NCBI GenBank assembly: GCA_007693335.1
Contig: REDU01000138.1
Coordinates: 1-64,000 of the forward strand
Length of the DNA: 64,000 nt
Direction: 5' to 3'
DNA from: Ilumatobacter sp.
GTDB taxonomy: Bacteria; Actinomycetota; Acidimicrobiia; Acidimicrobiales; Ilumatobacteraceae
Positions within the stretch are counted from its first letter, which is position 1, and every line of letters starts with the position of its first letter. The position numbers were made by a program, and so were the translations under genes. The notes below the pieces were generated by a model. That model saw only the letters and a list, made by a program, of their open reading frames with translations. It made no database searches and was not told where the DNA came from. Shown one piece after another: positions 7,741 to 48,622 of the stretch.

Positions 7741-7776
7741 GCACTGGTCCCGTGGAGCACAGGTCATCCGACGCGG

Positions 7777-15348: not shown

Positions 15349-16188
15349 GTGTCAGTCACGTCCCCTGATGGTGTCCGGGAACTGCAGCCTGCGGGCTCGT
15401 ACGCCTCGTTCGGCGTGTATCTCCGACGGTTGTGGGAGCGACGGGAATACCTGATCCACGTTCCGCGTAACGAACTGCGGAGCCGCAACATGAACACCGT
15501 GTTCGGCAACCTGTGGAACCTGCTGAACCCGATCCTCGCGATCGCGGTGTACTACCTGGTGTTCGGTGTCCTGCTCGGGGTCACGCGTGGCGTGGAGTAC
15601 TTCATCCCGTTCCTCGCGATCGGCGTGTTCGCCTACCAGTACACGCAGCGGAGCACGACGCAAGGAGCCAAGAGCCTGGTCGGCAACCTCGGTCTGCTCC
15701 GGTCCATCAGCTTTCCGCGAGCCATGCTCCCGCTCACGACGGTGATCACCGAGACCCTGGCGTTCCTGCCGACCGTGGCCGTGGCGTTCGCGGTGGCGCT
15801 GATCGCCGGGGTACCCGTCAGCATCACCTGGCTGGTGGTCATCCCCATCGTGGTGCTGCACGTGTTGTTCAACGCCGGTGCTGCGTTCGTGGTGGCACGG
15901 CTGAACCACGGATTCCGCGACATCGAGAACATCTTGCCGTTCCTGTTCCGTCTGCTGTTCTACGGCTCGGGAGTGATCTTCTACGTGGGGGCATACCTCG
16001 AGAACCCGAACCTGCGGTGGATCTTCATCGGGAATCCGCTGTTCTCGTTCCTCGCCCTGTACCGCTGGGCGGTGCTCGACATGCCGGCGGTCTGGACCGA
16101 GCTGGTGTCGGTGCTCGTGTGGACGTTCGTCTTGCTGATCGGCGGGCTGTGGTGGTTCCGGCGAGCGGAGGCTTCGTACGGTGGTTGA
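15349..16188 (+). CDS. Second polysaccharide ABC exporter permease (Wzm/ABC-2)
   Basis: This 279-residue permease has six predicted membrane segments, NELRSRNMNTVFGNLWNLLNP at the N-terminal interface helix, and LLRSISFPRAMLPLTTVITE in the middle, the standard Wzm pattern. The start is set by the TACACT box six bases upstream; the frame remains open further upstream but only as an antisense shadow. It is followed with an eight-base overlap by its ATPase. It is only distantly like the permease at 5095, so the locus has two separate exporters rather than a recent duplication. Confidence 0.93.
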   Translation: MSVTSPDGVRELQPAGSYASFGVYLRRLWERREYLIHVPRNELRSRNMNTVFGNLWNLLNPILAIAVYYLVFGVLLGVTRGVEYFIPFLAIGVFAYQYTQRSTTQGAKSLVGNLGLLRSISFPRAMLPLTTVITETLAFLPTVAVAFAVALIAGVPVSITWLVVIPIVVLHVLFNAGAAFVVARLNHGFRDIENILPFLFRLLFYGSGVIFYVGAYLENPNLRWIFIGNPLFSFLALYRWAVLDMPAVWTELVSVLVWTFVLLIGGLWWFRRAEASYGG

Positions 16189-16951
16189 TGTGTCCACGCT
16201 CGATCCCTCGGCACGAGCCGTGACCGACGACATCGCCATCTCGGTACGCGACCTCCATGTGCGGTTCAAGGTCTACGCCGACCGGTCGTTCACGATGCGA
16301 CGGATGTTCACCGGCGGTTTCAAGGGCCGGGTGGCCGACGAGGTCCACGCCGTCAGGGGGGTCTCGTTCGACGTCAAGGTGGGCGAGGTCGTGGGCGTTC
16401 TCGGCTCGAACGGCTCGGGCAAGAGCACGCTGCTCGGTGCGATCGCCGGTCTGCTCCCGCCCACCCAGGGAACGGTGATGGTTCGCCATCAGGCAGTGCT
16501 GCTCGGCGTGAACGCCGCGCTCAACAAGCATCTGTCGGGCAACCGGAACATCTACCTGGGATGCCTGGCGATGGGAATGTCGATGGCCGAGATCCGGGAC
16601 CGGATCGACGAAGTGGCCGAGTTCACCGAACTCGGCAAAGCGCTACAGCGACCACTGCGCACCTATTCGTCTGGTATGCGGGCCCGGCTGGCCTTCGCCA
16701 TCGCGACGTTGCAACAGCCCGAGATCCTCCTGATCGACGAAGCACTTGCGGTCGGCGACCGCAGGTTCCGCAAGAAGAGCCTCGATCGGGTTCGCGAGAT
16801 CCAGGCGAACACCGGGACCATCGTGATGGTCACGCACAACCTCAACGAGATCCGCTCGACGTGCACGCGAGCGCTGTGGATCGACGAGGGTGAGTTGCGG
16901 ATGGACGGCGCGGTCGACGAGGTCGTCGACCTGTACGAGAGTGGTTCGTGA
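16181..16951 (+). CDS. Second exporter ATPase (Wzt type, no carbohydrate-binding domain)
   Basis: The protein has 256 residues. Walker A GSNGSGKST is at 75-83, signature YSSGM at 162-166, Walker B ILLIDEA at 182-188, and the H-loop is in MVTHNLNEI. It ends shortly after the ABC core, so it lacks the Wzt C-terminal glycan-binding domain seen in the ATPase at 3807-5009. This resembles teichoic-acid (TagH-like) or capsule ATPases that do not read the chain end. It starts with GTG overlapping the permease stop by eight bases, and its own stop overlaps the LicD gene by four bases, tying export to that transferase. Confidence 0.93.
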   Translation: MVDVSTLDPSARAVTDDIAISVRDLHVRFKVYADRSFTMRRMFTGGFKGRVADEVHAVRGVSFDVKVGEVVGVLGSNGSGKSTLLGAIAGLLPPTQGTVMVRHQAVLLGVNAALNKHLSGNRNIYLGCLAMGMSMAEIRDRIDEVAEFTELGKALQRPLRTYSSGMRARLAFAIATLQQPEILLIDEALAVGDRRFRKKSLDRVREIQANTGTIVMVTHNLNEIRSTCTRALWIDEGELRMDGAVDEVVDLYESGS

Positions 16952-18933
16952 CGGGTTCGCTGTACGACTCGCTGAGGCGCTCGAGGTTCACTCGTCGGTT
17001 CCGGACCACCGTGCTGAAGTTCGAGCCGACGGCCCAGCGAGCGGGACAGTATCTGGCGCCACCACCGTACCGAGCCGTCGCGCGTGCGCGCACCGCCGCC
17101 CGTCGCCGGGACTGGGACGCGGCGTGTCGGGCCTGGGAGGGCCTCCTCCACTCCAAGGCTCGCACGCATCCCGCCTGGCACTACGAGTACGCACAGGTTC
17201 TCGACCATCTGTGGCGGATCGACGACGCCGGCCACCAACGCCACCGAGCGCTCGAGCACTCCAGCCACAACGTGTACGATTTTCATCGCCTCGCGGGACG
17301 CGCAGCCGCCGATGAGGCGTGGGAGTTGGCTTCGGCCGCGTTCGAACGGGCCGCGTCGTTCGACACGTCGAGCGAGTCGTTGATCCGAGCCGCTGACGCC
17401 GCGCTCGATGCGGGGGACGCAATGCGCGCAGCCGACCTGTACCGATCTGCGATCGAAGGCGCCGACGAACCGGTACCGGCGCCATACGCCGGTCTCGGCA
17501 ACGCCCTGCGCAAAGCCGGTCGGCTCGACGAAGCCGAGAGTGCGCTCGCCGATGCCAGACGACAGTTCCCGAACTCGGCGGCCGTGCTCGCGGCCCATGC
17601 GTGGGTGGCCACCGAGCGACGCGAGTGGGAGGCGGCATCACACCGTTGGCCGCTGGCATTCGCGACCCGGCGACGGCGCCTCCCGCCTCGATGGGTGTTC
17701 CGTTACGGCGAAGCACTCGAACGACTCGGACGTCACCGCGACGCCGCCGAGGCCTACGACCTCGCACTGATCCTCCTGCAGGCCGTCGACGAGCCGTGGG
17801 CGCACTGGGCCCTCCTCGAGTGGGAGTTCCGACGTGCGGTCTGCCGGCATCGCTGCGGCGACGAGCGACACGACGACCCCGCCTTCTCCGTCGACGTCGC
17901 CGGGCGCCCCCCGGGCGCGACGATCCCCGTGGATGCAGTCGGACGTTTCGCCCTCGACGTGAACCACCTCGGTCTCCGGGTGCACGGTCGACTCGGCGAT
18001 CCGTCCGCGTCGAACGTCGAGATCCGGGTGAACGGGGTCGCGATCAAACAGGTCGACGTCGACCATGAGACGCCGACGCCCCACTTCGCCTTCACCATCC
18101 GTCACTCCGCGCTCACGACGTTCCCCCGGACAACAGGTGTCTCGGTGGTGACGGAGACGGGTCCGTTGCTCCACGAGTACGGGCAGGAGATCGGCGAGGT
18201 CGACAACCCATTCGGCGACGAGTCGTTGTTCACCCGGCTCGGCACATCGGAGGTGTTCACCAAGAAGGGCGCGCTCGTCTCACACGAACTCGCCGAGATC
18301 TCCCCACGACAGCTGCTCGATGCGTACTCGACGGTGCGGGCATTCTTCACCGACCAGCTCGGTCTCGATCTGTTCCTGATGTACGGGACGCTGCTCGGAT
18401 GCCACCGTGACGGGCGATTCATCCCGGGCGACGACGATCTCGACGTCGGATATCTGACATCCTGCACCGATCCGGAACAGCTGAAGCAGGAGACCCGGGA
18501 TGTGGTGCGGGCGCTGCTCGACGCCGGCTTCGACATCAGCACTCGCCACGGTGGGAGCCTGTTCAAGATCTGGCAGGGCCAGATCGACATCGATGTGTAT
18601 CCCGTGTGGTTCCATCGAGGTCGAGCTTGGGGATACGACGCCATCGACGCCACGCCCGGCGACTACCACCCGGCGGTCGAGCGCGACCTGCTGGGCACAC
18701 TCGTGCTCGTGCCACACCGACCGGAGGCCCTGCTGAGCGCCACGTACGGACCGGACTGGAGGATCCCACAGCCGGGCTTCCGGCACTACCGCCGGAACGA
18801 CGTGCTGAACGTCCTCAAACGGAGTTCACTGACACCGTTCGAGGCGCGAGACCTGCTCGACGCGAACGCCACAGCGCGGGAACTCGATCCGGCGATCGGC
18901 CGATTCGCAATGCACAACGGGGGCATCCGCTGA
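16948..18933 (+). CDS. TPR protein with C-terminal LicD-family phosphotransferase domain
   Basis: The protein has 661 residues in three parts. Residues about 30-270 are helical repeats of the TPR type (DWDAACRAWEGLLHSK, WELASAAFERAASFD, GRLDEAESALADARRQF). Residues about 300-410 form a beta-rich domain of unknown type. Residues about 440-650 are a LicD domain: DLFLMYGTLLGCHRDGRFIP, then GDDDLDVGY near 493-501, which is the GTLLG...PxDDDxD nucleotidyltransferase-fold signature, followed by IDIDVYPVWF. LicD enzymes transfer phosphocholine from CDP-choline, and relatives are proposed to transfer phosphonates from CMP donors. With a CMP-phosphonate pathway at 47 kb, this is the leading candidate to attach HEP to the glycan. 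It is coupled to the second exporter. Confidence 0.88.
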   Translation: MTGSLYDSLRRSRFTRRFRTTVLKFEPTAQRAGQYLAPPPYRAVARARTAARRRDWDAACRAWEGLLHSKARTHPAWHYEYAQVLDHLWRIDDAGHQRHRALEHSSHNVYDFHRLAGRAAADEAWELASAAFERAASFDTSSESLIRAADAALDAGDAMRAADLYRSAIEGADEPVPAPYAGLGNALRKAGRLDEAESALADARRQFPNSAAVLAAHAWVATERREWEAASHRWPLAFATRRRRLPPRWVFRYGEALERLGRHRDAAEAYDLALILLQAVDEPWAHWALLEWEFRRAVCRHRCGDERHDDPAFSVDVAGRPPGATIPVDAVGRFALDVNHLGLRVHGRLGDPSASNVEIRVNGVAIKQVDVDHETPTPHFAFTIRHSALTTFPRTTGVSVVTETGPLLHEYGQEIGEVDNPFGDESLFTRLGTSEVFTKKGALVSHELAEISPRQLLDAYSTVRAFFTDQLGLDLFLMYGTLLGCHRDGRFIPGDDDLDVGYLTSCTDPEQLKQETRDVVRALLDAGFDISTRHGGSLFKIWQGQIDIDVYPVWFHRGRAWGYDAIDATPGDYHPAVERDLLGTLVLVPHRPEALLSATYGPDWRIPQPGFRHYRRNDVLNVLKRSSLTPFEARDLLDANATARELDPAIGRFAMHNGGIR

Positions 18934-18973
18934 CGGTCGTCCACCGACTGTGCCCTCCCCGGTCGGTGGTCCG

Positions 18974-20686
18974 ATGACCGCTACCCTCCCGGCGGTGGGC
19001 GCCATGTGGAGACGTGTCTCGGCCGCTGCGGTGCGGCTCCGACGTCTCGTCGGCCGTCAGCGCCTCGATGGCCGCATGGCCGAACCCACGGCGACCCTGA
19101 TCGGCCACCTGCTGCGCTTCTGGTGGGCCGCTGCGGTGGCTCGTCTCGTCCAGGTACGGCCCCTCACCACCCGTCCGATACGTCTGTGCCCCGACGTCCC
19201 CCCGCCGGGAACCTGGCGCCGATGGCGCACGACGGGGTCGATCGACCGTCCCGTCGGTGAACTCGCCCATCAACTGGCCGACGAGGTGATCGCGGTGCTC
19301 ACCGACGCCGGGGTCGATCCGATCCTCGTCGACCACGCGCACCACATCCACCTCGCCGTGCCGGCCGAATCGCGTGGAGTCGCTCTCGGATCGCTCGAGC
19401 AGCTCGGCCCCCACGGCGCCTGGTATCTCCGCTGGCGACGGGGCCACCGATGGCGGCTCCACCCGGTCGGCTCTCGTCGCTCGATGCGAGCCCGTCACGC
19501 CGAGTCGTGGCGGGTGTTCCGGTGCGTGGAGCTCGGCACCGAACTGGCTGCCGGCGCCCACGAAGCGGTCGAGGTGTCGTTCTGGGCGGTCGGCGCCGAG
19601 GGCCGACGTGAACGGCTCGGCGTACGTGGCCTCGAGCGCTACGAGCCCGACAGCCCTCCCACCGTCGAGACGATCGACCGTCACCGGTACCGGGGGTCCG
19701 CAGCGTTCCCGGTCGAGCGCGCGCTCGGTCGTGTCCGCGAGCCCATCGACGTCGTGTACACCTGGGTCGACGGGGACGATCCCGGATGGCGTACGGAGTT
19801 CGAGCGGTGGCGGGGGATCGAACGCCCCGACGACCGTCGCGACCATGCGGCACACGCGGCGCGATACACCTCGCACGACGAGCTCCGCTACTCGCTGCGC
19901 TCGCTGTGGATGTACGCCGACTGGGTACGACACGTCTACGTGGTCACCGCCGATCAGCAACCCGACTGGCTCCGACCCGACCAGCGGCTCACGGTCGTCT
20001 CACACCGCGACATCCTGCCTGCCGCAGCGCTCCCGACGTTCAACTCCCACGCCATCGAGTCGCGTCTGCACCACGTCCCCGGTCTCGCCGAGCAGTTCCT
20101 CTACTTCAACGACGACATGTTCCTCGGCCGGCCGGTCCGGCCCGAGCAGTTCTTCACCCCGAACGGCCTCGCACGCTTCTTCGAGAGCGGGGCCCGGGTG
20201 CCCACCAGCCCTGACGGATCGGCGCTGGCCGTCGACACCGCTGCACGTCGAGGACGGGCGATGCTCGAAGCCGAGTACGGGGTCACGGTGTCCCACAAAC
20301 TCCACCACGCCCCCTATGCACTGCGTCGCAGCGTGATGGAGGAGATCGAGTCGCGCTTCGCCGAGACCGTCACCGCCACGACCCACTCGCGGTTCCGTCA
20401 TCCCGACGATCTCAGCGTTCCCTCTGCGTTCGCCCACCACTACGCATTCCTCACCGGACGGTCCGTCCATGGTGAGCTGCACGTCGGGTACGAGAACCTG
20501 GGCGGTCGGCGTCTGGCGTTGTTCTTGGAGCGGACAAGGCTGGGACGCGATTTCGATGTCTTCTGCCTCAACGAGACGGAACGCTGGGAGACCGATCCGG
20601 TGCGCACCGGTGAGCGGGTCCACCAGTTCCTCGACAGCTACTTCCCGGTGCCGTCGCCCTGGGAACTGTCATCGACGCTCCCATGA
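18974..20686 (+). CDS. Stealth-family phosphotransferase 1
   Basis: The protein has about 570 residues. The N-terminal 250 residues are a variable domain. Stealth CR1 is DVVYTWVDGDDPGW near 258-271. CR2 is DELRYSLRSLWMYADWVRH near 302, followed by LPTFNSHAIESRLHHVPGL and FNDDMFLGRPV. CR3 is the KLHHAPYALRR...RFRHPDDLSVPSAF region, and CR4 is DVFCLNETE near 528. Stealth proteins are hexose-1-phosphotransferases that build phosphodiester-linked capsules; the human relative is GlcNAc-1-phosphotransferase. ATG 18974 and ATG 19004 are both possible starts; a TACCCT box at 18982-18987 would favour 19004. It overlaps the next GT by four bases. Confidence 0.9.
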   Translation: MTATLPAVGAMWRRVSAAAVRLRRLVGRQRLDGRMAEPTATLIGHLLRFWWAAAVARLVQVRPLTTRPIRLCPDVPPPGTWRRWRTTGSIDRPVGELAHQLADEVIAVLTDAGVDPILVDHAHHIHLAVPAESRGVALGSLEQLGPHGAWYLRWRRGHRWRLHPVGSRRSMRARHAESWRVFRCVELGTELAAGAHEAVEVSFWAVGAEGRRERLGVRGLERYEPDSPPTVETIDRHRYRGSAAFPVERALGRVREPIDVVYTWVDGDDPGWRTEFERWRGIERPDDRRDHAAHAARYTSHDELRYSLRSLWMYADWVRHVYVVTADQQPDWLRPDQRLTVVSHRDILPAAALPTFNSHAIESRLHHVPGLAEQFLYFNDDMFLGRPVRPEQFFTPNGLARFFESGARVPTSPDGSALAVDTAARRGRAMLEAEYGVTVSHKLHHAPYALRRSVMEEIESRFAETVTATTHSRFRHPDDLSVPSAFAHHYAFLTGRSVHGELHVGYENLGGRRLALFLERTRLGRDFDVFCLNETERWETDPVRTGERVHQFLDSYFPVPSPWELSSTLP

Positions 20687-21942
20687 TGGAACTCGCCCGG
20701 ATCGCCAGCGGCGTGAGGCAGCGGTCGTGGAGACTGCGCCTCGCGGCGCGCCGATGGTGGCCGGAGCGCCGGGTCGAGCCCCTCCTGGACGTGACCGGTC
20801 ACCGGTGGTTCGTCGGGTTGTTCCGACCCGAGTTCGCCACGGTGTGCAGATGGCCGCTGCTGCACCGGATGCCACGCTGGCAGCGATCCCGCACGCAGTC
20901 GCTCCGAATCATCGGTCCGGGCTCGACGGTCTCCACCGGGAGCGAGCCGGAAGGATGCGGATTCCGGACCGCCACGGCGAACCAACTGGACGACCGACCG
21001 TTCATCCAGCCGTTGACGATGAACCCGTCACGGCGACGATCGATCCGTCCCAGGGGGATGCCCACCGACTTCGCCGAGCTCGCGGGCGCGGCCCGGCGAG
21101 AGGTCGCGCCGCCACGACCGACACGACGCAGACCGGGGTCGACCGACGCGTGGCTCGCGGCGACCTCGACAGCGCACGAGCGGTACCGGGTCGCACACGA
21201 ACGCACGACATCGCACGTCGTCGACGAGGCGCTCCGCTCGACTGCTCGAGCTCCGCTCCCCCACGACCGAGAGGTCGCGGTGTTGTGCGCAACACGGCGA
21301 CCGCACCAGCTCGAGAACGTCATCGCGAACTTCGAGCGCCAGATCCACCCCGAGCGGCAGCTGGTCGTCATCACGAACTCATCGGCCTTCGATCGCGACG
21401 CGGTCGGGCGACGGCTGGAGCTCGTCGAGCGAGCGTCGGTCGTCCACGTGGACGAGGAGGCCTCCCTCGGCGAATGTCTCAACGCCGGCCTCGATTCCGT
21501 GGACTCTCGCTACGTCGCGAAGTTCGACGACGACGACCGGTACGGTCCGGCGTTCCTGCTCGATCTGATGATCGCCCACCGTTTCGCCCGTGCAGGCGTG
21601 GTGGGCAAACACAGCCACTTCGCCCTGTTCCAGGCGGACGGACGGGCGTATCTCCGATTTCCGGGACGGGAGTTCGGATACACCTCGTGGGTGGCTGGGG
21701 GGACGCTCGTGATCGACCGTCATCGAACCGGGACGCTGCGATTCCGTGACCGCTCCGTCGGGGAGGACGGCGCCTTCCTCGCAGACTGCCAGCGAGCAGG
21801 CCACGCCGTGTTCGCTGCGGACCGGTTCAACTACGTCCAACATCGCACCGACGACAACACGTGGCAACAGGCTCGTCGTCACTATCTCCGAAACGCTGTG
21901 GAGCTCGCGACCGAGGACCCGATCGGACTGATCGAACGATGA
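20683..21942 (+). CDS. GT2-like glycosyltransferase with long unassigned N-terminus
   Basis: The protein has 419 residues. The first about 190 residues are arginine rich and match no domain I know. From REVAVLCATRRPHQLENVIAN a GT-A domain begins; SRYVAKFDDDDRYGPAFLLD holds the metal-binding acidic run, and FRDRSVGEDGAFLADCQRAG gives the catalytic acidic block. It lies between two Stealth genes, with a four-base overlap to the first, so it probably supplies sugar to the acceptor that they phosphorylate. Its C-terminus ends 77 bases before the next gene. Confidence 0.85.
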   Translation: MMELARIASGVRQRSWRLRLAARRWWPERRVEPLLDVTGHRWFVGLFRPEFATVCRWPLLHRMPRWQRSRTQSLRIIGPGSTVSTGSEPEGCGFRTATANQLDDRPFIQPLTMNPSRRRSIRPRGMPTDFAELAGAARREVAPPRPTRRRPGSTDAWLAATSTAHERYRVAHERTTSHVVDEALRSTARAPLPHDREVAVLCATRRPHQLENVIANFERQIHPERQLVVITNSSAFDRDAVGRRLELVERASVVHVDEEASLGECLNAGLDSVDSRYVAKFDDDDRYGPAFLLDLMIAHRFARAGVVGKHSHFALFQADGRAYLRFPGREFGYTSWVAGGTLVIDRHRTGTLRFRDRSVGEDGAFLADCQRAGHAVFAADRFNYVQHRTDDNTWQQARRHYLRNAVELATEDPIGLIER

Positions 21943-21990
21943 CACTCCCGCGAGGTGCCGCGTGGCTCCTTTCACGCCCGCACCGACGGA

Positions 21991-21996
21991 TACATT
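21991..21996 (+). promoter_or_regulatory. -10 element upstream of the glycerophosphotransferase-Stealth fusion
   Basis: TACATT is followed 14 bases later by GGTGGA (22011-22016) and the ATG at 22020. This gives a short leader with a ribosome site, unlike the leaderless genes. Confidence 0.4.
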
Positions 21997-22019
21997 GACC
22001 AGTCCACGTCGGTGGATCC

Positions 22020-24707
22020 ATGTACGACATCGCATTCCTCGTCACCAATCGCTATCAGCTCCACCACTACGCCCCCGTCGCTCGCGCCCTGGGCCAGCGG
22101 TGCAGTGTCGTCATCGAGTTGCGCGATCAGGACTTCGGCGTCGACGAGGACGCGGTGCGGCGACACCTCCCCGACGCACGGATCTCATGGATCCACCAGC
22201 GCGAGCTCCGCCGGCTCGACGGCCGCCACGACGCGATCGTGTGCCAGACACCCGTGCTCCCCCACGCCTTCCTCGACCGAACGCTCGTGATCGCCCAGCA
22301 GTACAGCCTCGCCAAGGAGCGGTACCAGTACGGAACGTGGAGATCGCTCGCGGACCTCAATCTGATGTTCGGCGAGCACTCCCACTCGAGGGTTCGTGGT
22401 TTCGCTTCCGCCGTCGCCGTCGGCAACCCGCTGTTCGACGAACACTTCTCGGCGCAGGCCTCACTCGAGAACGGCCCGAGGCCACGCCGCGACGGGCGGG
22501 TCCGTGCCCTCTACCTACCGACGTACGGATCACTCACATCACTCGACTCGGTGATCGACCAAATGGGTCCCGACGACGTCGAGGTCACGGTCAAGCTCCA
22601 CCACATGGCCAGCGAGGACGAACGACGGCGCTTGCCGGAGTGGTGGAAGGTGGTCGAGAGCGACGTCAGTCCCGTGACGCTGATCGAAGCGGCCGACGTG
22701 ATCATCAGCGACTTCTCCGGGGCGGCGTTCGATGCCGCGTACGCTCGCCGCCCGCTCATCCTGGTCGGCGATCCGACACCGAGCGGACGCGACTTCTCCA
22801 GGCTGTCGGCCGCAGATCTCGACAGGAGTCTGTTGGCCGACGTCTCGGTCCAGTACCGGCACGACACGCCGTTCGATGACCTGGTCGACCAGGCATCGGC
22901 GATGATCGACGACGACCACGCCTACGAGGCGTTCGTCGAGCAGTTCTACACGAACCATGGGACCGCTGCGCCCGCCTGCGCAGCGGCGATCCACGAACTC
23001 CTCGAGTCCGGGCCCCGGCGCGACCTCGCCGCGAGCGTGGTGCGGGCGAGCACACGCGACCTGATCCTCCGGAACCGGGCGCTCTCCGAGGAGATCCGAC
23101 ATCTCCGACGGGCGAACGACCGGCTGCGATCGAGATCGGGACGCACGGTCGCGTCGTACACCGAACGCTCGCGCCGCCGGGCGAAGGCCTTCGTCTCGAG
23201 ATCGCCCGCACTCGAGCGACGGGCGGTCCAGGTCAAGCATGTCTTGGGACGCGCTGTCCGCACCGGGGGCGCACCCAGCACTGGACGACCTCCCGACGAG
23301 ATCCGAGCGACGGCGACCACACCATGGCAGCGGCGCGATGCGCTCGCACTCGATGTCGAGGCCGGCGTCGCATCGGCCGGTGCCGTCGTCCGCCGGATCA
23401 TCGTCGACGGACGCCCGCTGCTCGCCGTGTCCGCGGATCAGCGCTCGACACTGGCCGCAGTGGTCCGGGAACTCGCCAGAGACCATCCCGGTCTCACGGC
23501 CGTGGTACGGGGCGGTTCGTTGCCCGCCGACACGATCCGCACGATCGATCTCCAGGCATCGGACTCGCTCGTCCTCCGACTCGGCGGGGGTACGGCTCCC
23601 ACAGAGCTCCGGATCGACTTCGCCGACCACCGTCCGACCCTCGGACGCACCCTGTCGCTCGACTCCCGGTCGCCAGTGGTGGACTGGACCTCCCATCTCG
23701 GGGGCGGATCGCCGGCAGTCACGCAATCACCGGCCGTCATCACGCGGGGGTTCACCGATGAGATCGACCTCGTCTACACCTGGGTCGATGCAGCTGACCC
23801 GGTCTGGGACGCGCGGCGTCGGCAGCACTCCGCCGGCACGGCCCAGTTGCCGAGCGCAGCGAACGACGAGCGGTTCCTCGATCGTGACGAGCTCCGTTAC
23901 TCGCTCCGATCCATCTGGAACCACATGCCGTTCGTTCGACGCATCCACCTCGTGACCGACGGTCAGGTGCCTGCGTGGCTCGACACCACCGACTCGCGGA
24001 TCTCGCTGATCGATCATCGCGAGATCTTCCCGGACCCCTGCGCGCTCCCGACGTTCAACTCCCACGCGATCGAAGCGTGCCTGCACCGGATTCCTGGGCT
24101 GGCCGAGCACTTCATCTACGCGAACGACGATTTCTTCGTCGGTCGGGAGGTGGCCCCTGACACGTTCTTCACCCGGGTCGGACTCCCCAGGTCCCGATTC
24201 GCGCCGTCACAGTTCATCTACTCCGGCGAACCCCGGCCCGATGCGATCCCGACCGATTGGGCCGCCTTCAACACCACGCGCCTCATCGAACGCGACTTCG
24301 GCATCTCGTTCGACCGGAAGCACCAACACGTGCCGTACGCCCTCACGAAGTCGTTGCTCTCCGAACTCGAGGGACGGTATCCCGACGAGTTCGACCGAAC
24401 GCGCCGCGCCCGATTCCGCTCACGAACCGACGTGGCGGTGCCGAGCATGTTGGCCCACTTCTACGCGATCGCAACCGGCAGAGGCATCGAGTGGGAGACC
24501 GCGCCCGGCGACTACATCTATGCCGACACGGGCCGCGCCGATGCGCTCCGTCGGTTCCGGGACATCCGGAACGGTCGACCGAGGTTCTTCTGCCTCAACT
24601 CCACACTCCATCGCGTGCTCGACCTCTCCGACCAGTCGATCGAGGTGTCGTTGCTGCTCAGCGAGTTGTTCCCGCATCCGAGTCCGTGGGAGCTCGCACC
24701 GGAGTGA
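22020..24707 (+). CDS. Fusion of CDP-glycerol glycerophosphotransferase-like domain and Stealth phosphotransferase (2)
   Basis: The protein has 895 residues. Residues 1-330 resemble the TagF/Glyphos_transf family: DLNLMFGEHSHSRVRGF, LYLPTYGSLTSLDSVID, VTVKLHHM, and VTLIEAADVIISDFSGAAFDAAYARRP, the conserved D-S/x-S-x-x-x-D/E-x-x polymerase block. Residues about 340-400 are coiled coil. Residues about 440-560 are a Stealth-associated domain also seen in the protein at 40425. Stealth follows: DLVYTWVDAADPVW near 581-594, DELRYSLRSIWNHMPFVRR, LPTFNSHAIEACLHRI, NDDFFVGREV, and CR4 RFFCLNST near 855. It may make an alternating glycerol-phosphate or sugar-phosphate backbone. Its 3' end overlaps the opposite-strand GT by 50 bases. 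Confidence 0.9.
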   Translation: MYDIAFLVTNRYQLHHYAPVARALGQRCSVVIELRDQDFGVDEDAVRRHLPDARISWIHQRELRRLDGRHDAIVCQTPVLPHAFLDRTLVIAQQYSLAKERYQYGTWRSLADLNLMFGEHSHSRVRGFASAVAVGNPLFDEHFSAQASLENGPRPRRDGRVRALYLPTYGSLTSLDSVIDQMGPDDVEVTVKLHHMASEDERRRLPEWWKVVESDVSPVTLIEAADVIISDFSGAAFDAAYARRPLILVGDPTPSGRDFSRLSAADLDRSLLADVSVQYRHDTPFDDLVDQASAMIDDDHAYEAFVEQFYTNHGTAAPACAAAIHELLESGPRRDLAASVVRASTRDLILRNRALSEEIRHLRRANDRLRSRSGRTVASYTERSRRRAKAFVSRSPALERRAVQVKHVLGRAVRTGGAPSTGRPPDEIRATATTPWQRRDALALDVEAGVASAGAVVRRIIVDGRPLLAVSADQRSTLAAVVRELARDHPGLTAVVRGGSLPADTIRTIDLQASDSLVLRLGGGTAPTELRIDFADHRPTLGRTLSLDSRSPVVDWTSHLGGGSPAVTQSPAVITRGFTDEIDLVYTWVDAADPVWDARRRQHSAGTAQLPSAANDERFLDRDELRYSLRSIWNHMPFVRRIHLVTDGQVPAWLDTTDSRISLIDHREIFPDPCALPTFNSHAIEACLHRIPGLAEHFIYANDDFFVGREVAPDTFFTRVGLPRSRFAPSQFIYSGEPRPDAIPTDWAAFNTTRLIERDFGISFDRKHQHVPYALTKSLLSELEGRYPDEFDRTRRARFRSRTDVAVPSMLAHFYAIATGRGIEWETAPGDYIYADTGRADALRRFRDIRNGRPRFFCLNSTLHRVLDLSDQSIEVSLLLSELFPHPSPWELAPE

Positions 24708-26437: not shown

Positions 26438-26445
26438 CGCCTCAG

Positions 26446-26451: not shown

Positions 26452-26457
26452 GAACCC

Positions 26458-35675: not shown

Positions 35676-37652
35676 TCACGATAGCGCTGCCCACCGGTCG
35701 ACGATGTCGCCAGAACGGATGTCGGGCATGTGCTCGTATCCCTCGACCAGTGCTGCAGGACACCATCTGGTGACGCGCTCGGTGGCGACGATCTGCCCCG
35801 TGCAGACGAGCCGGACGAGTTCGCCGTCGATCGCCTCCCATACCTCCGACGCGATGTCGAGGCCGTGGGCCGGGAGGTGGACCATCCCGACCGTTCGTCC
35901 TGCTGCTCGATGAGCCGCCACATCGGCCAGCACCTCGCGCAGCACGACCGACGACGGGTGGAGATCCGCGATCACGATCTCGTCGAAGCGGGTGATGGGT
36001 GATGACCGGTTCGCCTCGTCCGGTGAGACCGCCGACGACGATCCTCGCCGGAGCGCATCGGGCACGAGAAACGGCTTCGCACCCTTGCGCTCCAGCGGGA
36101 GGAACGCTGCGAAGTCGGGGCCTCCCATCCAGTGCTCGTACGCGCGACGGTGGATGAATCGGGCACCGGTCGGCCACAGCAATGACGCCAGGGGGGTCGA
36201 GGAACTGCGACTCAAGGAGTCCGGAGCGAGCCGGCACAGGGCGAGTGGCGCACCTGGCTCGACGGTCGCGACCGAGTCGTCGCCGTATCGCGTCCGGAGC
36301 CGGGCGAGGAACTCGCTGTCGGCGCCGGCGGACACAGGATCCCAGGCTCCGACCTCCTCGATGACGTCGCGCCGGAAGAGCAACGACGAGAGATTGCGCT
36401 GCATCAGCTCCAGCCGCGGCCACGGGCGCGAGTGGACGAACCGGAAACCGTCGTCGACCCTCGACATCATCGACACGCTCGCAACCGTCCCATCGTTCTC
36501 CTGCAACGCCCGCACCTGTCGAGCGATCTTCTCGGGATGCGACCAATCATCGGCATCGTGCACCGTCACGACGTCACCGCTGGCATGCGCGAGGCCGGCA
36601 TTCCTCGCGAGATAGGCACCGCTGTTGACGGTCCGGATCAAGGTGACCCTCGGGTCGTCCGTCGAATGACGTTCGGCCACCTCTGCCGTGCGATCGGTGC
36701 TCCCGTCGTCGACGACGATGATCTCGAGGCGGCTCCACGTCTGGGACCTGAGCGATCCGAGGGCGATGTCGAGCCACTCGGCACCGTTGAACACCGGCAT
36801 GATCACGCTGACGAGACGGTCGCACGACTCGCTCCGGGGCGGATCCGACATGAGGTTGGCGAGCGAGAGCGGCACGGACGGATCAGCCACCACGACGCGA
36901 TGCAGTCCGTCCGAGTGGTGTTCGTACACGGCGTTCAGACCGCCGAGGACATCTCCTGCAGCCGAGTCGGCGGCACGCGTCAGGTTCGCCCGACGGAGCA
37001 ACAGGCTCGAGGAGTGGGCGATCTCGTGTTCGTCGAGCACGTGCGCCGCCAGCGAGACATCGCCACGCTCGAGATGGGTGTCGACGTGCAGCGCCACGAG
37101 CTCGTCGCTGGTGAACCCCTCCTGCAGGGTCAGTGCGTGGTCGGCGTACAGGCGCGCTGCGTCGAGATCGCCACGCCCGAGGCTCCACCAGCCGAGCACG
37201 AGCGCAGCAGCGGCCCGTTCGTCACGATCCGCGGTGGCGTCACCCATCACCTCTCGGAGCACCGGGCATGCGTCGGTGGCGAATCCGGCATGGAGCCTCG
37301 TCCGCATCGACCGCACCCGCTTGCTCGAGCGAGCTCGTGCCGGGCGCGAGGGTGACGGGCTCGATGACGGATCGTGAGAACGCGAAGACCGTGAGCCGGG
37401 GAGGGCCCGACGACCCTTCGTCGCCCGTGTCCGTCGGACGTACCTGACGATGGTCGCCGACAGGACGCTCATCACCGCGGCGTAGGTGATGGCGGTGACG
37501 AGGCTCCCGCTGACGAGCATCACCACGATGACAGAGCCGATGACCGCGCCGATACCGGTGACGGTTCGAGGACCGGTGAATCGAGGTCTGGGCACGGGTG
37601 GTTCGGGATGCCTCGGCAGTGCGATGTCGCCGGACCGACGACCATACGACAC
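35676..37652 (-). CDS. Membrane-anchored GT2 glycosyltransferase with helical-repeat linker
   Basis: The protein has about 658 residues. An N-terminal hydrophobic hairpin (IGAVIGSVIVVMLVSGSLVTAITYAAV) probably anchors it. Residues about 120-260 are helical with TPR-like features (AAAALVLGWWSLGRGDLDAAR). The GT2 domain follows: LVSVIMPVFNGAEWLDIALGS, EIIVVDDGSTDRTAEVAE, DVVTVHDADDWSHPEKIA (DAD metal site) and AGADSEFLARLRTRYG. The C-terminal 120 residues are separate and unassigned. GTG 37652 is a tentative start: there is no good ribosome site, and the gene is divergent from Stealth 3 with about 67 bases between starts. Confidence 0.82.
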   Translation of the reverse strand: MSYGRRSGDIALPRHPEPPVPRPRFTGPRTVTGIGAVIGSVIVVMLVSGSLVTAITYAAVMSVLSATIVRYVRRTRATKGRRALPGSRSSRSHDPSSSPSPSRPARARSSKRVRSMRTRLHAGFATDACPVLREVMGDATADRDERAAAALVLGWWSLGRGDLDAARLYADHALTLQEGFTSDELVALHVDTHLERGDVSLAAHVLDEHEIAHSSSLLLRRANLTRAADSAAGDVLGGLNAVYEHHSDGLHRVVVADPSVPLSLANLMSDPPRSESCDRLVSVIMPVFNGAEWLDIALGSLRSQTWSRLEIIVVDDGSTDRTAEVAERHSTDDPRVTLIRTVNSGAYLARNAGLAHASGDVVTVHDADDWSHPEKIARQVRALQENDGTVASVSMMSRVDDGFRFVHSRPWPRLELMQRNLSSLLFRRDVIEEVGAWDPVSAGADSEFLARLRTRYGDDSVATVEPGAPLALCRLAPDSLSRSSSTPLASLLWPTGARFIHRRAYEHWMGGPDFAAFLPLERKGAKPFLVPDALRRGSSSAVSPDEANRSSPITRFDEIVIADLHPSSVVLREVLADVAAHRAAGRTVGMVHLPAHGLDIASEVWEAIDGELVRLVCTGQIVATERVTRWCPAALVEGYEHMPDIRSGDIVDRWAALS

Positions 37653-37719
37653 TATCCGTGACCGGTCCCCACGTACCGCATGCGCCAGAATCTGTGTCCC
37701 ACGATGCAAGGAGCGCGTT

Positions 37720-39174
37720 CTGCCCGACGACCGATCACTCGACAGCGCCGCGACACGGCGGTGCTTGGCATCCACGGTCGTTCGCGTCGCAGCCGACGTG
37801 GGGATCTCGTGCGTCCGGCTCCCGAGCGAGACCGGGATCCGGCTCGGCTACGTCACCTCGTCACTGTCCGAGCCGCCGACCGAACTGCTGGCCGGGCTCG
37901 AGTCCCTGGGCGCCGTGGTGACGCCGGTGGAGTCGACCATGCGAACCAACTCCTACGAGTTCAGCACGCCGCACCCGCTCGAGGGCACCGCATTCACCTA
38001 CCACCGGGTCTCACCCGGTTCCCCGGGGACGGAGAACCCGTCCTTCCTCCGACGCCAGTGGGTGTCGGTCGAGCCACTCCTCACCGAGGGCGAGAGCGAG
38101 AGCGACGATCTGATCGTGCCGCGAGCGGGAGCGGGACCGCGCCGGTACCGGCTGGAACACCTCGACATCCTGCATCCATCGGGGCGTGATCACTTCGACA
38201 TCGGACGGGCACCGCCGTTCCCGATCGACCTCGTCACGACGTGGGTCGATGGGCAGGATCCAGGTTGGCAGCGCGACTTCGAGCGGGCGGCGAGCCACGT
38301 CGACCTCGAAGCCCTCCCCCGGTTCGCCGCCAACCGAGGTCGCTGGACCTCTCGTTCCGAGCTCCGGTACAGCCTCCGTTCGGTATGGATGTACGCGCCC
38401 TTCGTGCGCCGGATCTTCGTCGTCACGAACGGTCAGCGACCCGCATGGCTCCACGAGAGCGAGCAGGTCCGCATCGTGCGACACGGCGAGATCTTTCCCG
38501 ACCCGGCGGTACTCCCGACGTTCAACTCTCGTGCGATCGAGTCGGTCCTCCATCGGATTCCCGATCTGGCCGAACACTTCATCTACCTGAACGACGACTT
38601 CTTCTTCGGCCGTCCACAACGTTTCGAGCAGTACTTCAGTCGCGGCGGTCTCACCCGCCACTTCCGCTCGAAGCGGCACCTCGATCCCGACCCGCCGCGA
38701 CCCGACGATCGCGCCACGGTCGTCGGGCACAAACGGACCCGCGCCCTGCTCCGCGAGCGATACGGCATCGAGTCCGACCACAAGTTCCAGCATGCGCCCT
38801 ACTGCATGAGGCGATCGATCTGGCAACGGATCGAAGCCGACTGCGCCGACGAACTGGACGTGCTGCGCCATGCCCGCTTTCGCAGCTGGGAGTCGATCAC
38901 CGCAGTGAGCTTCCTCTACGACCACCTGGCGATCGAGCTCGGGCACGGGGATTACGCCGAGCTCGACTACGCCTACGCCGAGTTGGAGGCCGGAGCGCCG
39001 AACTCACAGGTCGAGCGAGTACTCAACCGGAGTCTCGATGTGTTCTGCATCAACGATGCCGATTCCGAGGCCGACGACGGTGGCTCGGGCGCTCTCGAGG
39101 GGCTTCTCGCCCGGCGATTTCCCGTCCTTCCGCCATGGGAGGATCCCTCTCGCTCAGCGACGAACGGTTCGTGA
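37720..39174 (+). CDS. Stealth-family phosphotransferase 3
   Basis: The protein has about 484 residues. CR1 is DLVTTWVDGQDPGW near 169; the usual tyrosine before T-W-V-D is threonine here. CR2 is SELRYSLRSVWMYAPFVRR, then LPTFNSRAIESVLHRIPDL and LNDDFFFGRPQ. CR3 has HKFQHAPYCMRRSIWQRI and RFRSWESITAV, and CR4 is DVFCINDAD near 440. It is predicted to transfer sugar-1-phosphate. The start is uncertain: no ATG or GTG is well placed; CTG 37720 has an AAGGAG site six bases upstream, and TTG 37765 is an alternative. It is divergent from the GT2 at 37652. Confidence 0.87.
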   Translation: MPDDRSLDSAATRRCLASTVVRVAADVGISCVRLPSETGIRLGYVTSSLSEPPTELLAGLESLGAVVTPVESTMRTNSYEFSTPHPLEGTAFTYHRVSPGSPGTENPSFLRRQWVSVEPLLTEGESESDDLIVPRAGAGPRRYRLEHLDILHPSGRDHFDIGRAPPFPIDLVTTWVDGQDPGWQRDFERAASHVDLEALPRFAANRGRWTSRSELRYSLRSVWMYAPFVRRIFVVTNGQRPAWLHESEQVRIVRHGEIFPDPAVLPTFNSRAIESVLHRIPDLAEHFIYLNDDFFFGRPQRFEQYFSRGGLTRHFRSKRHLDPDPPRPDDRATVVGHKRTRALLRERYGIESDHKFQHAPYCMRRSIWQRIEADCADELDVLRHARFRSWESITAVSFLYDHLAIELGHGDYAELDYAYAELEAGAPNSQVERVLNRSLDVFCINDADSEADDGGSGALEGLLARRFPVLPPWEDPSRSATNGS

Positions 39175-39332: not shown

Positions 39333-40271
39333 GTGGGCTATTTCGTTGCGCTGCCGTCGCTGGATCCTCTCAGCGGTGAACGCGGTCCCGAGTATCTCGA
39401 CATCGTCGATGGGGCCACGACCGCAGTTCAACGTGGGCTTCGCCGCACCGGTCTGTCGGGGTTCGCACCGACGTGCACGGCGCTGTTGACGGCGTTCGCC
39501 CGTCAGCGGCCAGGCTTCACCTTCTTCGACGTCGGCGCCAACGTCGGGATCTATTCCTCACTGTGCTCGGTGCTGTTCGAACCGGCCACCGTCGTCGCAT
39601 TCGAGCCCACGCCCTCGACCGCTGCGGTGACCCGCCAGATCGCAGCAGCCAACGGACTCGACGTCGTCGTCGAACAGACCGCCGTCGCGAGCGCGCCAGG
39701 AACAGCAACCCTTCAGCTCTCCGCGACCTCCGACGCATCGAATTCCCTGCGAGAGGGCTTCAAGCGGAGCGTTGGCACGATCGATGTGCCCGTCACCTCG
39801 ATCGACAGGTATGTCTCCGAGACCGGAACGGCGCCATCGGTCATGAAGGTCGACGTCGAATCGCTCGAAGCGGAGGTCATCACAGGAGCTGCGGCAACCA
39901 TTCGAGAGCATCGCCCGCTCCTCGTGGTCGAGGTGTCCTATCGGAGCGAGCGGGACTACGGCGCCGAACTCGACCAGCTCATGAACGAGTTCGACTACTG
40001 CTACTACCGACTGGTCGAATCGCCCACCTGGAAACCTCGCGAGAAGATCCGGAGCACACCGAAATCCCCACACCGCGACTGGCTCCTGGCCCCACAGGAA
40101 CTCGACGGCGGGTTCGTCAGGGAGTACCAGGTCTGGGCGGAGGCGCTCTCTCGGTGCACGCCGGCACTCAACCTCAAGGTCCGCCAGCCTGCGCCCGAGG
40201 AACCGCCTCACCAGCGCGGCGGTCTCGGATCGGCGATCCGCCGATTGGTGCGATCCGTCACCGAGAGGTAG
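39333..40271 (+). CDS. FkbM-family methyltransferase 1
   Basis: The protein has 312 residues. FTFFDVGANVGIYSSLCSVL is the FkbM (Methyltransf_21) motif I, VVAFEPTPSTAAV the ribose-binding block, and SVMKVDVESLEAEVITGA the conserved K-(I/V)-D-(V/I)-E-(G/S) strand. LLVVEVS follows. FkbM-type enzymes methylate hydroxyl groups of sugars or polyketides. It is a clear paralog of the protein at 42174-43088, sharing GFAPTCT-LLT and GFTF-DVGA blocks. It lies between Stealth 3 and Stealth 4 on the same strand with about 150-base gaps, so it is probably transcribed from its own promoter. Confidence 0.9.
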   Translation: MGYFVALPSLDPLSGERGPEYLDIVDGATTAVQRGLRRTGLSGFAPTCTALLTAFARQRPGFTFFDVGANVGIYSSLCSVLFEPATVVAFEPTPSTAAVTRQIAAANGLDVVVEQTAVASAPGTATLQLSATSDASNSLREGFKRSVGTIDVPVTSIDRYVSETGTAPSVMKVDVESLEAEVITGAAATIREHRPLLVVEVSYRSERDYGAELDQLMNEFDYCYYRLVESPTWKPREKIRSTPKSPHRDWLLAPQELDGGFVREYQVWAEALSRCTPALNLKVRQPAPEEPPHQRGGLGSAIRRLVRSVTER

Positions 40272-40424: not shown

Positions 40425-42143
40425 ATGCGTGAGCGGATCAAGCGCTTGACGTTCGACCTCCTCCAACGGTTCGGACACATCGAAACTGCGCTGGAACTCC
40501 GTTATCGATTCAACTCGCGGAGAACAAGAATCGGCGACAGCGTGGCGCTGAGAATGACTCCACAACGGATCCGCCAGGAGGCGCGAGCCGAAGGAACTGG
40601 GCTCGCCGTCCATCGCACAGATGGCACACGACCTCTCGCCGTGGTCTTCCGACGGCGAGATGACCCCTCGATCGTCGCCGTCGCCGACAGCAATTCGAGG
40701 ATCGTCGAGGAGTGTCTGGATCGAGGGGGGATTCCGACCCGCGCGATTCCCATCAGCTCGGTCAACCGGGCGAGACTGGCCGTCCTGGACGACGATCGCG
40801 ACCGTGTGATCCAGGCGCTCCGGCGGTACGGGCCGTCCACGCTGTACCTCTACATCGACGATCGCACCATCCCCCGGAGACGGCGGCTCCATCACATTGC
40901 CTCCGCCGGCAAGCGGTTCGATCGAGCCATCGCAGACGCTGGCATCGTCAGGGTCTTCGAGTTCCGTGCCGATGCACTCGCGAACGATGTCTCCGGTGAT
41001 CTGTACGGGTGCGAGATCGAGTTCTGGGGCGACGCCGCTGAAGCGGAGGATGACGGAGGGGAGGCATTCGGGAGTGACGGCGGGGACCTGGTCCGAGCAC
41101 ACCGCGCCAACCTCGAGTCGACGTTGCTGCCGCGCACCGAGTTCTCGCACCGCTCGACCCGATCGGACCTCGACCTCCTCCCACTCATCGAGGACGTCAC
41201 GTTCGACGTCGACGTGGTCTACACCTGGGTCGACGGTGACGATCCGGACTGGCTGTCACGGCGCGAGGCCGCGCTCGGAGGGTCCCCGTCGGACCACATT
41301 CACGAGGAGGCGGCGAGCGACGCTCGGTACACGTCATTCGACGAACTCCGCTATTCGTTGCGATCACTCGAACGATTTGCTGACTTCGTACGCCACGTGT
41401 ACCTCGTGACCGATGCACAGCGACCTGTGTGGCTCGTCGACGACCACCCCAGGCTGTCGGTGGTGGACCACCGTCAGATCTTCGACGACCACTCGTGCCT
41501 CCCGACGTTCAACTCGCACTCGATCGAGTCCCGACTGCACCACATTCCCGGATTGTCCGAGCACTACGTGTACATGAACGATGACTTCCTCTTCGGACGC
41601 CGGGTCGTTGCCAGTAACTTCTTCTTCGGCAACGGCATCGCCAAGTTCTTTCCCTCAGCGGCAATGGTCCCATCCGGCGCGATCGACGTTCACACGAAGC
41701 CGGTCGACATGGCGGCGATGAACGGCCGGGATCTCGTCGAGCGAGAATTCTCCCGCCGGGTGATCCGCAAGATGCGGCACGCGCCCTATCCCCAGCTCCG
41801 CACGGTCCAGCTCGACATCGAACGTCGCTTTCCCGCCGAGGTCGCCCGCACGACAGCGAGTCGGGTCCGCAGCCAGACCGATCTGTCGCTCGCATCCTTT
41901 CTCCACCATCACGTCGCCCACGCGACGGGACGAGCGCTACCGGCCACGATTCGCAACGAGTACGTCGACCTCGGACGACCGGATCTCGAACGCAAGCTCG
42001 CTCGACTCGCCAGCACGCAAACCTTCGACACACTGTGCCTCAACGACACCGACAGTCTTGCCGTGAGCCGAGCGACGAAGCAGCGGATCGTGCAGTCGTT
42101 CCTCGAAACCTACCTGCCCGAAGCATCGTCATTCGAGCGTTAG
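40425..42143 (+). CDS. Stealth-family phosphotransferase 4
   Basis: The protein has 572 residues. The N-terminal 250 residues contain a domain like that preceding Stealth in the 895-residue fusion (ALRRYGPSTLYLYIDDRTI). CR1 is DVVYTWVDGDDPDW near 263, CR2 is DELRYSLRSLERFADFVRH near 306, then LPTFNSHSIESRLHHIPGL and MNDDFLFGRRV; CR3 is KMRHAPYPQLRTV...RVRSQTDLSLASF and CR4 is TLCLNDTDS near 536. All four conserved regions are intact. It is predicted to be a sugar-1-phosphate or related phosphotransferase. A TAGAGT box eight bases upstream of the ATG indicates its own promoter. It converges with the FkbM 2 gene with 30 bases between stops. Confidence 0.9.
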   Translation: MRERIKRLTFDLLQRFGHIETALELRYRFNSRRTRIGDSVALRMTPQRIRQEARAEGTGLAVHRTDGTRPLAVVFRRRDDPSIVAVADSNSRIVEECLDRGGIPTRAIPISSVNRARLAVLDDDRDRVIQALRRYGPSTLYLYIDDRTIPRRRRLHHIASAGKRFDRAIADAGIVRVFEFRADALANDVSGDLYGCEIEFWGDAAEAEDDGGEAFGSDGGDLVRAHRANLESTLLPRTEFSHRSTRSDLDLLPLIEDVTFDVDVVYTWVDGDDPDWLSRREAALGGSPSDHIHEEAASDARYTSFDELRYSLRSLERFADFVRHVYLVTDAQRPVWLVDDHPRLSVVDHRQIFDDHSCLPTFNSHSIESRLHHIPGLSEHYVYMNDDFLFGRRVVASNFFFGNGIAKFFPSAAMVPSGAIDVHTKPVDMAAMNGRDLVEREFSRRVIRKMRHAPYPQLRTVQLDIERRFPAEVARTTASRVRSQTDLSLASFLHHHVAHATGRALPATIRNEYVDLGRPDLERKLARLASTQTFDTLCLNDTDSLAVSRATKQRIVQSFLETYLPEASSFER

Positions 42144-47197: not shown

Positions 47198-47311
47198 CGT
47201 ACCTGACGGCCGGGAGCGGACCGTCGGGGGACCGCATCGATGCCTGACAGCCTCGCCCGACGCCGGAGTAAGGTGCCCCTCGTTCACAGTCCGTTGACCC
47301 AAGGTTCATCG

Positions 47312-48622
47312 ATGCCCAACTCCCCTCGCGTTTACGTCGGCATGAGTGCCGATCTCATCCATCCCGGACACATCAACATCCTGCATCGTGCCGCGGAACT
47401 CGGAGAGGTCACGGTCGGCCTGCTCACCGATCGGGCGATCGCGAGCTACAAGCGGCTCCCTCACATGACGTACGAGCAGCGTCGCGAGGTCGTGAGCAAC
47501 CTGCGTGATGTCCATGAAGTGATCCCGCAGGAGACACTCGACTACGTACCGAACCTGCGCCAACTCCGGCCCGACTTCGTGGTGCACGGCGACGATTGGC
47601 AATCAGGTGTCCAGCGCGAGACCCGCGCTCGCGTCATCGAGGCACTCTCCGAGTGGGGCGGCGAGCTGGTCGAGGTGGCGTACACCCCCGGGATCAGCTC
47701 CACCCAACTCAACGCCTCGCTGAAGCAGATCAGCACCACCCCCAACGTCAGGATGGCCCGACTCCGCCGCCTCATCGACAACAAGCCGATCGTACGGCTG
47801 ATGGAGGCCCACAGCGGACTGTCCGGCCTGATCGTGGAGAACACGTCGATCGAGGATGACGGACTGCGCCTCGAGTTCGACGGGATGTGGTCGAGTTCGC
47901 TCACCGACTCGACCTCGCGCGGCAAGCCCGACATCGAGGCCGTCGACATCAGCTCCCGGCTGCAGATGATCAACGAGATCTTCGAGGTCACGACCAAGCC
48001 CTTGGTGTTCGACGGCGACACCGGGGGCAAGCCGGAGCACTTCGCGTTCACCGTCCGGTCGCTCGAACGGCTCGGTGTCTCTGCAGTGATCATCGAGGAC
48101 AAAGAGGGTCTCAAGCGCAACTCGCTGTTCGGCAACGACGTCGAGCAGACCCAGTCGTCGATCGAGGATTTCTGCGGCCGGCTGCGCGTCGGCAAGGAGT
48201 CCCAGATCACCGACGACTTCATGGTGATCGCACGCATCGAGAGTCTCATCCTCGATCGCGGGCTCGACGATGCGCTCGAGCGCGCCGAGGCGTACGTCGA
48301 CGCCGGCGCCGACGCGGTCATGATCCACAGCCGTCAACGCGACGCCGGCGAGGTGTTCGAGTTCTGCCGGCGTCTCCGTCAGGTCGACACGCGGGTTCCC
48401 ATCGTGGCGGTGCCCACCTCGTACCACCACGTCACCGAGGACGAACTGGCGGCTGCCGGCGTGAACGTCGTGATCTACGCCAACCACATGTTGCGCGCCG
48501 CGTACCCCCAGATGCGCAAGGTGGCCGAGAGCGTGCTCGAGCACCGACGGGCGCTCGAGGCCGACGGTCTCCTGTCCAGCATCTCGGAGGTACTCAGCAT
48601 CATCCCCGAGAACGCTCGATGA
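47312..48622 (+). CDS. Cytidylyltransferase-PEP mutase fusion (phosphonate biosynthesis entry and activation)
   Basis: The protein has 436 residues. Residues 1-135 are a TagD/CTP_transf_like nucleotidyltransferase: HPGH at 17-20 and ISST at 128-131 are its nucleotide-binding motifs. Residues about 150-430 are phosphoenolpyruvate mutase: DGDTGG at 234-239, the diagnostic [10 protein letters not shown] at 262-271, and ARIESLI. PEP mutase converts PEP to phosphonopyruvate, making the C-P bond. The fused domain is expected to load a product onto CMP. ATG 47312 follows an AAGGTT site; GTG 47273 is possible. The ATGA overlap with the decarboxylase gene shows a tight operon. PEP mutase versus isocitrate-lyase-like relatives is settled by the EDKxGxKxNS motif. 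Confidence 0.95.

Follow-up and report, generated by a model that had tools for sequence, protein, structure and literature searches.

The Pnt pathway, to which Ppm, PntC and a LicD-like protein belong, combines a CMP-activated phosphonate with LicD-like genes in a surface-glycan context; transfer of the CMP-phosphonate by the LicD-like protein has already been proposed, and the steps after CMP-phosphonate formation were termed enigmatic (Rice et al. 2019, PMC6697681). The same combination is seen in the window, the whole stretch of 64,000 nucleotides of Ilumatobacter sp. analysed here. However, the studied PntC enzymes pair AEP with a MobA-type NTP transferase, whereas the window pairs 2-hydroxyethylphosphonate (HEP) with a Fom1-type enzyme (PF01467) and carries TagF-like and Stealth proteins in addition. 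A fused cytidylyltransferase/PEP mutase (CyTase-PepM) followed by ppd and adh is also found in Streptomyces wedmorensis, the fusion of strain NRRL 3426 being 71% identical to that of the window, but in the fosfomycin locus of this species CMP-HEP is led to the antibiotic and no LicD or TagF-like gene lies within 10 kb.

Glycomyces and Stackebrandtia are genera of known HEP-glycan makers, and Yu and colleagues, whose 2014 work is cited by PMC8931226, are said to have purified HEP phosphonoglycans from Glycomyces sp. NRRL B-16210. The locus of this strain (L035) contains CyTase-PepM, ppd, adh, a TagF-like gene and two LicD genes, and in the Stackebrandtia relatives L150 and L151 LicD adjoins a TagF-Stealth fusion. 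In these loci LicD or TagF is placed at most 10 kb from pepM, whereas in the window LicD belongs to an exporter operon and three further Stealth genes are present. Given this gene set and the proposal of Rice et al., the original prediction that a combined LicD, Stealth and HEP system matches no described pathway was too strong.

The single enzymes of the window also have described counterparts. Its Stealth proteins share the regions CR1-CR4 and the catalytic E/N/D/R residues with CpsY and GNPTAB, but they stand in a phosphonate-gene context, their donor is a putative one, and one of them is fused to a TagF-like domain. The TagF-like capsule polymerases (PMC5974469) resemble the window fusion in joining a TagF-like GT-B domain to a second transferase; the fusion differs from them in its Stealth partner, in a first half where the canonical catalytic histidine motif is not obvious, and in a genome where no glycerol-3-phosphate cytidylyltransferase was found (see below). 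New are the TagF-like alternative to LicD and the TagF-Stealth fusion: neither TagF-like enzymes in the gene position discussed below nor a TagF-Stealth fusion with HEP was found described in an incomplete literature search.

The HEP cassette and the exporter operon

The cassette starts with a CTP-transferase/PEP mutase fusion of the Fom1 type (phosphonopyruvate, CMP-HEP; 47240..48622, + strand; PF13714 and PF01467), whose PEP mutase scores 419 bits with TIGR02320 (cut-off 320), contains the PepM motif EDKx5NS and is fused to the PF01467 cytidylyltransferase. On the same strand follow the phosphonopyruvate decarboxylase gene ppd (48619..49752; TIGR03297, 435 bits, cut-off 313), the Fe-alcohol dehydrogenase gene adh (49749..50906; PF00465 and PF25137), encoding a putative phosphonoacetaldehyde reductase giving HEP, and a gene for a sulfotransferase-like protein (50903..52267), with successive overlaps of 4 bp. 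The last protein gave no Pfam or NCBIfam match; its homologues are encoded directly 3' of adh in loci L026, L027 and L032, and in L074 the same position is taken by Sulfotransfer_3 (Pfam). Fom1 of S. wedmorensis is cited in PMC6697681 as making CMP-HEP and thus, with the PepM motif and the 71% identity to the fusion of that species, the supply of CMP-HEP is well founded. A CMP-phosphonate supply had been expected 25 kb away from the LicD and Stealth genes (16948-24707); it is real (PepM fusion, ppd and adh), but starts 22.5 kb after this interval.

Between 15.3 and 24.7 kb the + strand carries, in this order, the second ABC exporter, a TPR-LicD protein, a Stealth protein, a GT2-like glycosyltransferase and a TagF-like/Stealth fusion. 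The exporter permease (15349..16188, from a candidate GTG start) has homologues in family genomes G012 and G019 with 46-47% identity; the longer open reading frame from 14371 gave no Pfam match. The exporter ATPase (16181..16951; PF00005, E 4.2e-24) is followed by the TPR-LicD protein (16948..18933; PF04991 plus TPR, the LicD domain covering approximately residues 448-661), which is a candidate CMP-HEP transferase, and by the Stealth protein (18950..20686; PF17101/11380/17102/17103), a candidate sugar-1-phosphate transferase of the core glycan. The GT2-like assignment (20683..21942; PF00535, 22.5 bits, slightly below the cut-off) draws also on synteny, a gene of this kind coming after the same type of Stealth gene in relatives. 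The fusion (22020-24707) comprises the TagF-like GT-B domain (22020..23060), a second candidate CMP-HEP transferase, and a Stealth domain (23730..24707) with CR1-CR4 and the catalytic residues kept. The genes from the exporter to GT2 overlap or lie at most 17 bp apart and a gap of 78 bp precedes the fusion, so that the entire run is read as one operon. Pfam, profile comparison and models confirmed the TPR-LicD and Stealth proteins predicted beside the second ABC exporter and supported the glycerophosphotransferase-like domain.

With a little more confidence than doubt, the locus is read as directing the synthesis of a HEP-decorated glycan, in which LicD and the TagF-like domain would be the candidate CMP-HEP transferases and Stealth the sugar-1-phosphate transferase. 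The domains, catalytic residues, operon layout, co-occurrence and shared gene position used here are direct observations. The donors, acceptors and chemistry that we infer are as follows. CyTase-PepM, Ppd and ADH would produce HEP and CMP-HEP, and a CMP-dependent transferase would pass HEP from CMP-HEP to a glycan hydroxyl with release of CMP. For this step the TPR-LicD protein comes first as a candidate and the TagF-like domain second, the latter maybe serving a different acceptor in the same way. The backbone would receive sugar-1-phosphate from NDP-sugars through the Stealth domains, which would not handle HEP, and the ABC transporter would export the finished product, predicted to be a surface glycan, probably O-methylated, that carries HEP.

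A shared gene position after adh

A contig scan yielded 80 CyTase-PepM loci from Actinobacteria, Bacteroidales and other phyla, and transferases were counted within approximately 10 kb in 73 informative loci, including 4 added from a phylum search. LicD was present in 34 of the 73 and a TagF-like gene in 26, and 58 had at least one of LicD, TagF-like or CDP-alcohol transferase; the 15 loci with none of the three families count against the proposed reading. None of these families was seen in 40 control regions (584 kb). The comparison (58/73 versus 0/40; Fisher 2e-18) treats the loci as independent, which does not hold, and uses search profiles partly built from pepM-locus matches; the controls are arbitrary regions and not glycan loci, and part of the enrichment may be a feature of glycan loci as such.

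The position directly 3' of adh, 2.1–2.4 kb past pepM, is usually taken in Bacteroidales and others by a gene for a LicD or a TagF-like protein, and the two never occur together in one locus outside Actinobacteria. Pfam confirms Glyphos_transf in the five examples tested (L049, L054, L058, L059 and L086), and CDP-OH_P_transf is found in this slot in L051 (Pfam). As LicD and TagF-like genes share the slot and are mutually exclusive outside Actinobacteria, two unrelated CMP-HEP transferases are suggested; read most simply, one job, the transfer of HEP from CMP-HEP to an acceptor, would be done by unrelated enzymes. A genome-wide search gave no LicD match in six genomes with TagF in the slot (L047, L054, L056, L060, L068 and L070), where TagF would therefore have to act alone. 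The likely transferases of several phyla can be named from one slot after pepM-ppd-adh, filled by LicD, TagF-like or CDP-alcohol transferase, and the comparison offers a testable rule for the phosphonate-tailoring step that Rice et al. left enigmatic. PMC8931226 counts HEP among the most abundant phosphonates in the high-molecular-weight fraction of marine dissolved phosphorus, so that its mode of attachment bears on its release.

In a sample of 200 genomes from the family to which the window belongs, CyTase-PepM is found in three genomes (G000, G012 and G019) and LicD in the same three plus G133; the chance that both other pepM genomes carry LicD is 1.5e-4, with genomes taken as independent. 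For G012 and G019 it was the family profile that found the LicD genes, whole-protein similarity with the window LicD having missed them. Gene calling was based on GC3 and gave some antisense open reading frames (e.g. 22314-27983 in G012), which were replaced by domain evidence. In G012, pepM, ppd and adh are flanked by three LicD-domain genes, one of them with two LicD domains, and no TagF-like gene of the type seen in the window is present. In G019 a TagF-Stealth gene is placed directly beside pepM and a GT2-LicD gene just past adh. In G133 (83% complete), LicD and Stealth occur without pepM, which counts against the HEP reading.

A further point against this reading comes from the window itself, where the gene after adh is the sulfotransferase-like one and LicD and TagF lie 23–30 kb away in the exporter operon. 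This distance, together with the tendency of capsule islands to gather many modules, would suit a HEP cassette and LicD/Stealth genes that are carried along independently of each other in a large glycan island; the LicD genes flanking pepM in G012, the TagF-Stealth gene adjoining it in G019 and the cassette-less loci of G098 and G078, which also lack LicD and TagF, make such an origin very unlikely.

The LicD and TagF-like domains

PF04991 recognises the LicD protein of 16948-18933 with 30.0 bits (cut-off 22.6) over profile positions 3-34 only, and a complete LicD domain is seen in a 35-row alignment and in an AlphaFold model (pLDDT 87.5). The top 13 structure matches of the model were all FKRP, including complexes with CMP and CDP-ribitol (E 4e-8; VIA Z 12.6–13.8 over 151–160 residues at 3.0–3.7 Å). 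The domain presents a nucleotidyltransferase-like (FKRP-type) fold with an acidic metal motif, where D75/D77/D79 and D129 (numbering of the 18208-18930 fragment) align with the metal motif of FKRP; D75 and D79 are invariant in the 35 rows and D129 is conserved in at least 90%. The TPR-LicD protein is probably a CMP-HEP transferase and is taken as the first candidate.

Among LicD and FKRP enzymes, those that have been characterised take CDP-choline or CDP-ribitol as donor. LicD could thus transfer phosphocholine, glycerol-phosphate or ribitol-phosphate, HEP being used for a separate small molecule, and a weak NCBIfam match of the window LicD is to a cholinephosphotransferase; the FKRP complexes among the structure matches point the same way. 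On the other hand, LicD tracks pepM in the family and comes after pepM-ppd-adh in many loci, while the Streptomyces small-molecule-type clusters L038, the locus of a fosfomycin species, and L044, which we take to be that of a fosfomycin producer, have neither LicD nor TagF-like genes in the locus and no LicD anywhere in the genome. A donor of this other kind is considered unlikely.

The N-terminus of the fusion matches Glyphos_transf/TagF (PF04464) with 22.0 bits, under the cut-off of 22.1, and is hence called TagF-like and not TagF. Its profile, compared with the TagF-like genes 3' of adh elsewhere, reached an hhalign probability of 97% (E 1e-11). The model of the domain has a GT-B fold (pLDDT 71.7) and matches TagF (3l7k; E 4.5e-8, Z 15.0), tied with many GT-B enzymes (epimerases and glycosyltransferases); as these matches are general, the structure search cannot separate a polyol-phosphate transferase from a glycosyltransferase, and the link to TagF rests on sequence. 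Searched against PDB sequences, the TagF-like profile found a single marginal, unrelated match. In the domain, both histidines of the KLHH motif are invariant, as is the SDxSG..FD motif. Where H444, the first catalytic histidine of TagF, would be expected, the sequence is QQYSxxKExxQxG in an uncertain alignment, and activity is therefore held to be less certain for this domain than for LicD. In a phylum sample of 396 genomes the TagF-like subtype is seen in G000 and G019 only, both with pepM and too few for statistics. The domain is the second candidate CMP-HEP transferase, perhaps for another acceptor.

The PF01467 members of the genome of the window (94% complete) are CoaD, NadD, a RibF-like match (assigned by size alone), a weak fragment and the PepM fusion; no full-length member of the glycerol-3-phosphate cytidylyltransferase type was found besides this fusion. 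The absence of such an enzyme favours CMP-HEP as the cytidylyl donor that the TagF-like domain would use, though an IspD-type enzyme may supply CDP-ribitol or a cytidylyltransferase gene may have been lost in assembly gaps. It likewise weakens the proposal that HEP transfer is left to LicD alone and that the fusion is a bifunctional capsule polymerase of the usual kind, which would take CDP-glycerol or CDP-ribitol together with an NDP-sugar. Such a role would agree with the use of CDP-glycerol by TagF-containing capsule polymerases (PMC5974469) and with G012, whose LicD genes surround pepM without a TagF-like gene of the window type; against it, TagF-like genes fill the LicD slot in other loci and the gene next to pepM in G019 is a TagF-Stealth fusion. 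We hold this division of labour to be possible, if rather doubtful. Quite unlikely, in our estimate, is that the fusion acts as a bifunctional polymerase of a teichoic-acid-like backbone where HEP replaces glycerol-phosphate, the TagF half joining the HEP phosphonate to a sugar and the Stealth half joining sugar-1-phosphate to the HEP hydroxyl, which would give alternating phosphonate and phosphate diesters.

Stealth proteins and the core glycan

The two Stealth proteins originally predicted are both encoded in 16948-24707, but the window contains four in total, the third (37486..39174; PF11380, 132 bits) and fourth (40425..42143; PF11380, 137 bits) also on the + strand and with the catalytic residues kept. 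CR1-CR4 are found in all four by Pfam, each over the cut-off in the 18950-20686 protein and with CR3 and CR4 slightly below it in the 37486 protein. The 18950 protein matches CpsY (8j2n; E 1.8e-69) and GNPTAB (7s6n; E 1.3e-39). CpsY acts on UDP-GlcNAc and requires E305, N322, D324 and R419 (PMC10668966), a catalytic set that is kept in the four proteins of the window.

Each of the three family genomes with CyTase-PepM also carries Stealth (chance 1.8e-3), which could suggest that these proteins transfer HEP themselves. Seven further family genomes, however, have Stealth without CyTase-PepM, and no Stealth domain was seen in the examined flanks of the 80 CyTase-PepM loci (in Stackebrandtia L046 a TagF-Stealth gene starts within the flank and runs out of it, its Stealth half falling outside). 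In the G019 fusion beside pepM, none of the four catalytic residues is left in the Stealth half, whereas the TagF half is conserved. The locus of G098, placed entirely on one contig, consists of Bac_transf, GT, FkbM, GT2, Stealth, exporter, epimerase and hydrolase genes, with no pepM, LicD or TagF, and the G078 locus shows the same core, likewise without them; both genomes are 78–81% complete, with continuous synteny on the contig. From these HEP-less cores and the decayed Stealth half of G019, Stealth is placed with the backbone and LicD/TagF with the HEP module. Stealth as HEP transferase was rejected on the same two observations and, with UDP-GlcNAc as the substrate of the characterised enzyme CpsY, is regarded as hardly credible; Stealth probably transfers sugar-1-phosphate and not HEP. 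Where LicD, Stealth and the glycerophosphotransferase had been predicted together as HEP or sugar-phosphate transferases, LicD and the TagF-like domain are retained as HEP candidates (slot and co-occurrence), and Stealth is withdrawn from that role (catalytic set, HEP-less cores and decay in G019).

The third and fourth Stealth genes are separated by a gene for an FkbM methyltransferase (39333..40271, + strand; PF05050), part of a conserved Stealth-GT2-FkbM core; FkbM adjoins Stealth-GT2 in G012, G019, G078, G098 and G133.

A sulfotransferase-like gene next to adh, and a relative

The position after adh is occupied in the window by a gene for a sulfotransferase-like protein (50903–52267, + strand), which overlaps adh by 4 bp and has a relative at 56294–57694 (− strand), neither protein giving a match to a sulfotransferase family. 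A homologue of this gene likewise follows adh in three of the CyTase-PepM loci used for comparison (L026, L027 and L032), and no LicD or TagF gene was seen in their examined flanks. These proteins may represent another HEP-linked step.

Neighbours of adh and pepM in other loci

In Methylonatrum kenyense adh is followed by a TagF-like gene of the window subtype (L058:13707–16589, +), fused to a capsule-synthesis-like domain. The same slot holds a CDP-alcohol phosphotransferase gene in L051 (13608–14363, +), which suggests HEP-headgroup lipids in Desulfuromusa. In the relative G019, pepM is adjoined by a TagF-Stealth fusion (L011:5552–8089, −) in which none of the four catalytic residues of the Stealth half is retained.

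Possible glycan modification and other reading frames

Methyltransferases are numerous in the window (29134–30828, 31908–32753, 39333–40271, 42174–43412 and, assigned by eye only, 13614–14378 and 25670–26437), one double and one TylF-like among them. This abundance fits an O-methylated glycan, as is found in Glycomyces. At the window end, a fusion protein (62783–64000, −) combines a CMP-sugar synthetase with a KdsC-like phosphatase and adjoins a DUF6716 glycosyltransferase, which suggests a nonulosonic-acid glycan in the vicinity.

The weak 2′-5′ RNA ligase-like ORF directly ahead of pepM (46388–47302, −) may be no real gene. By eye only, a small gene pair (7079–7767, −) resembles a PIN-domain toxin and its antitoxin.
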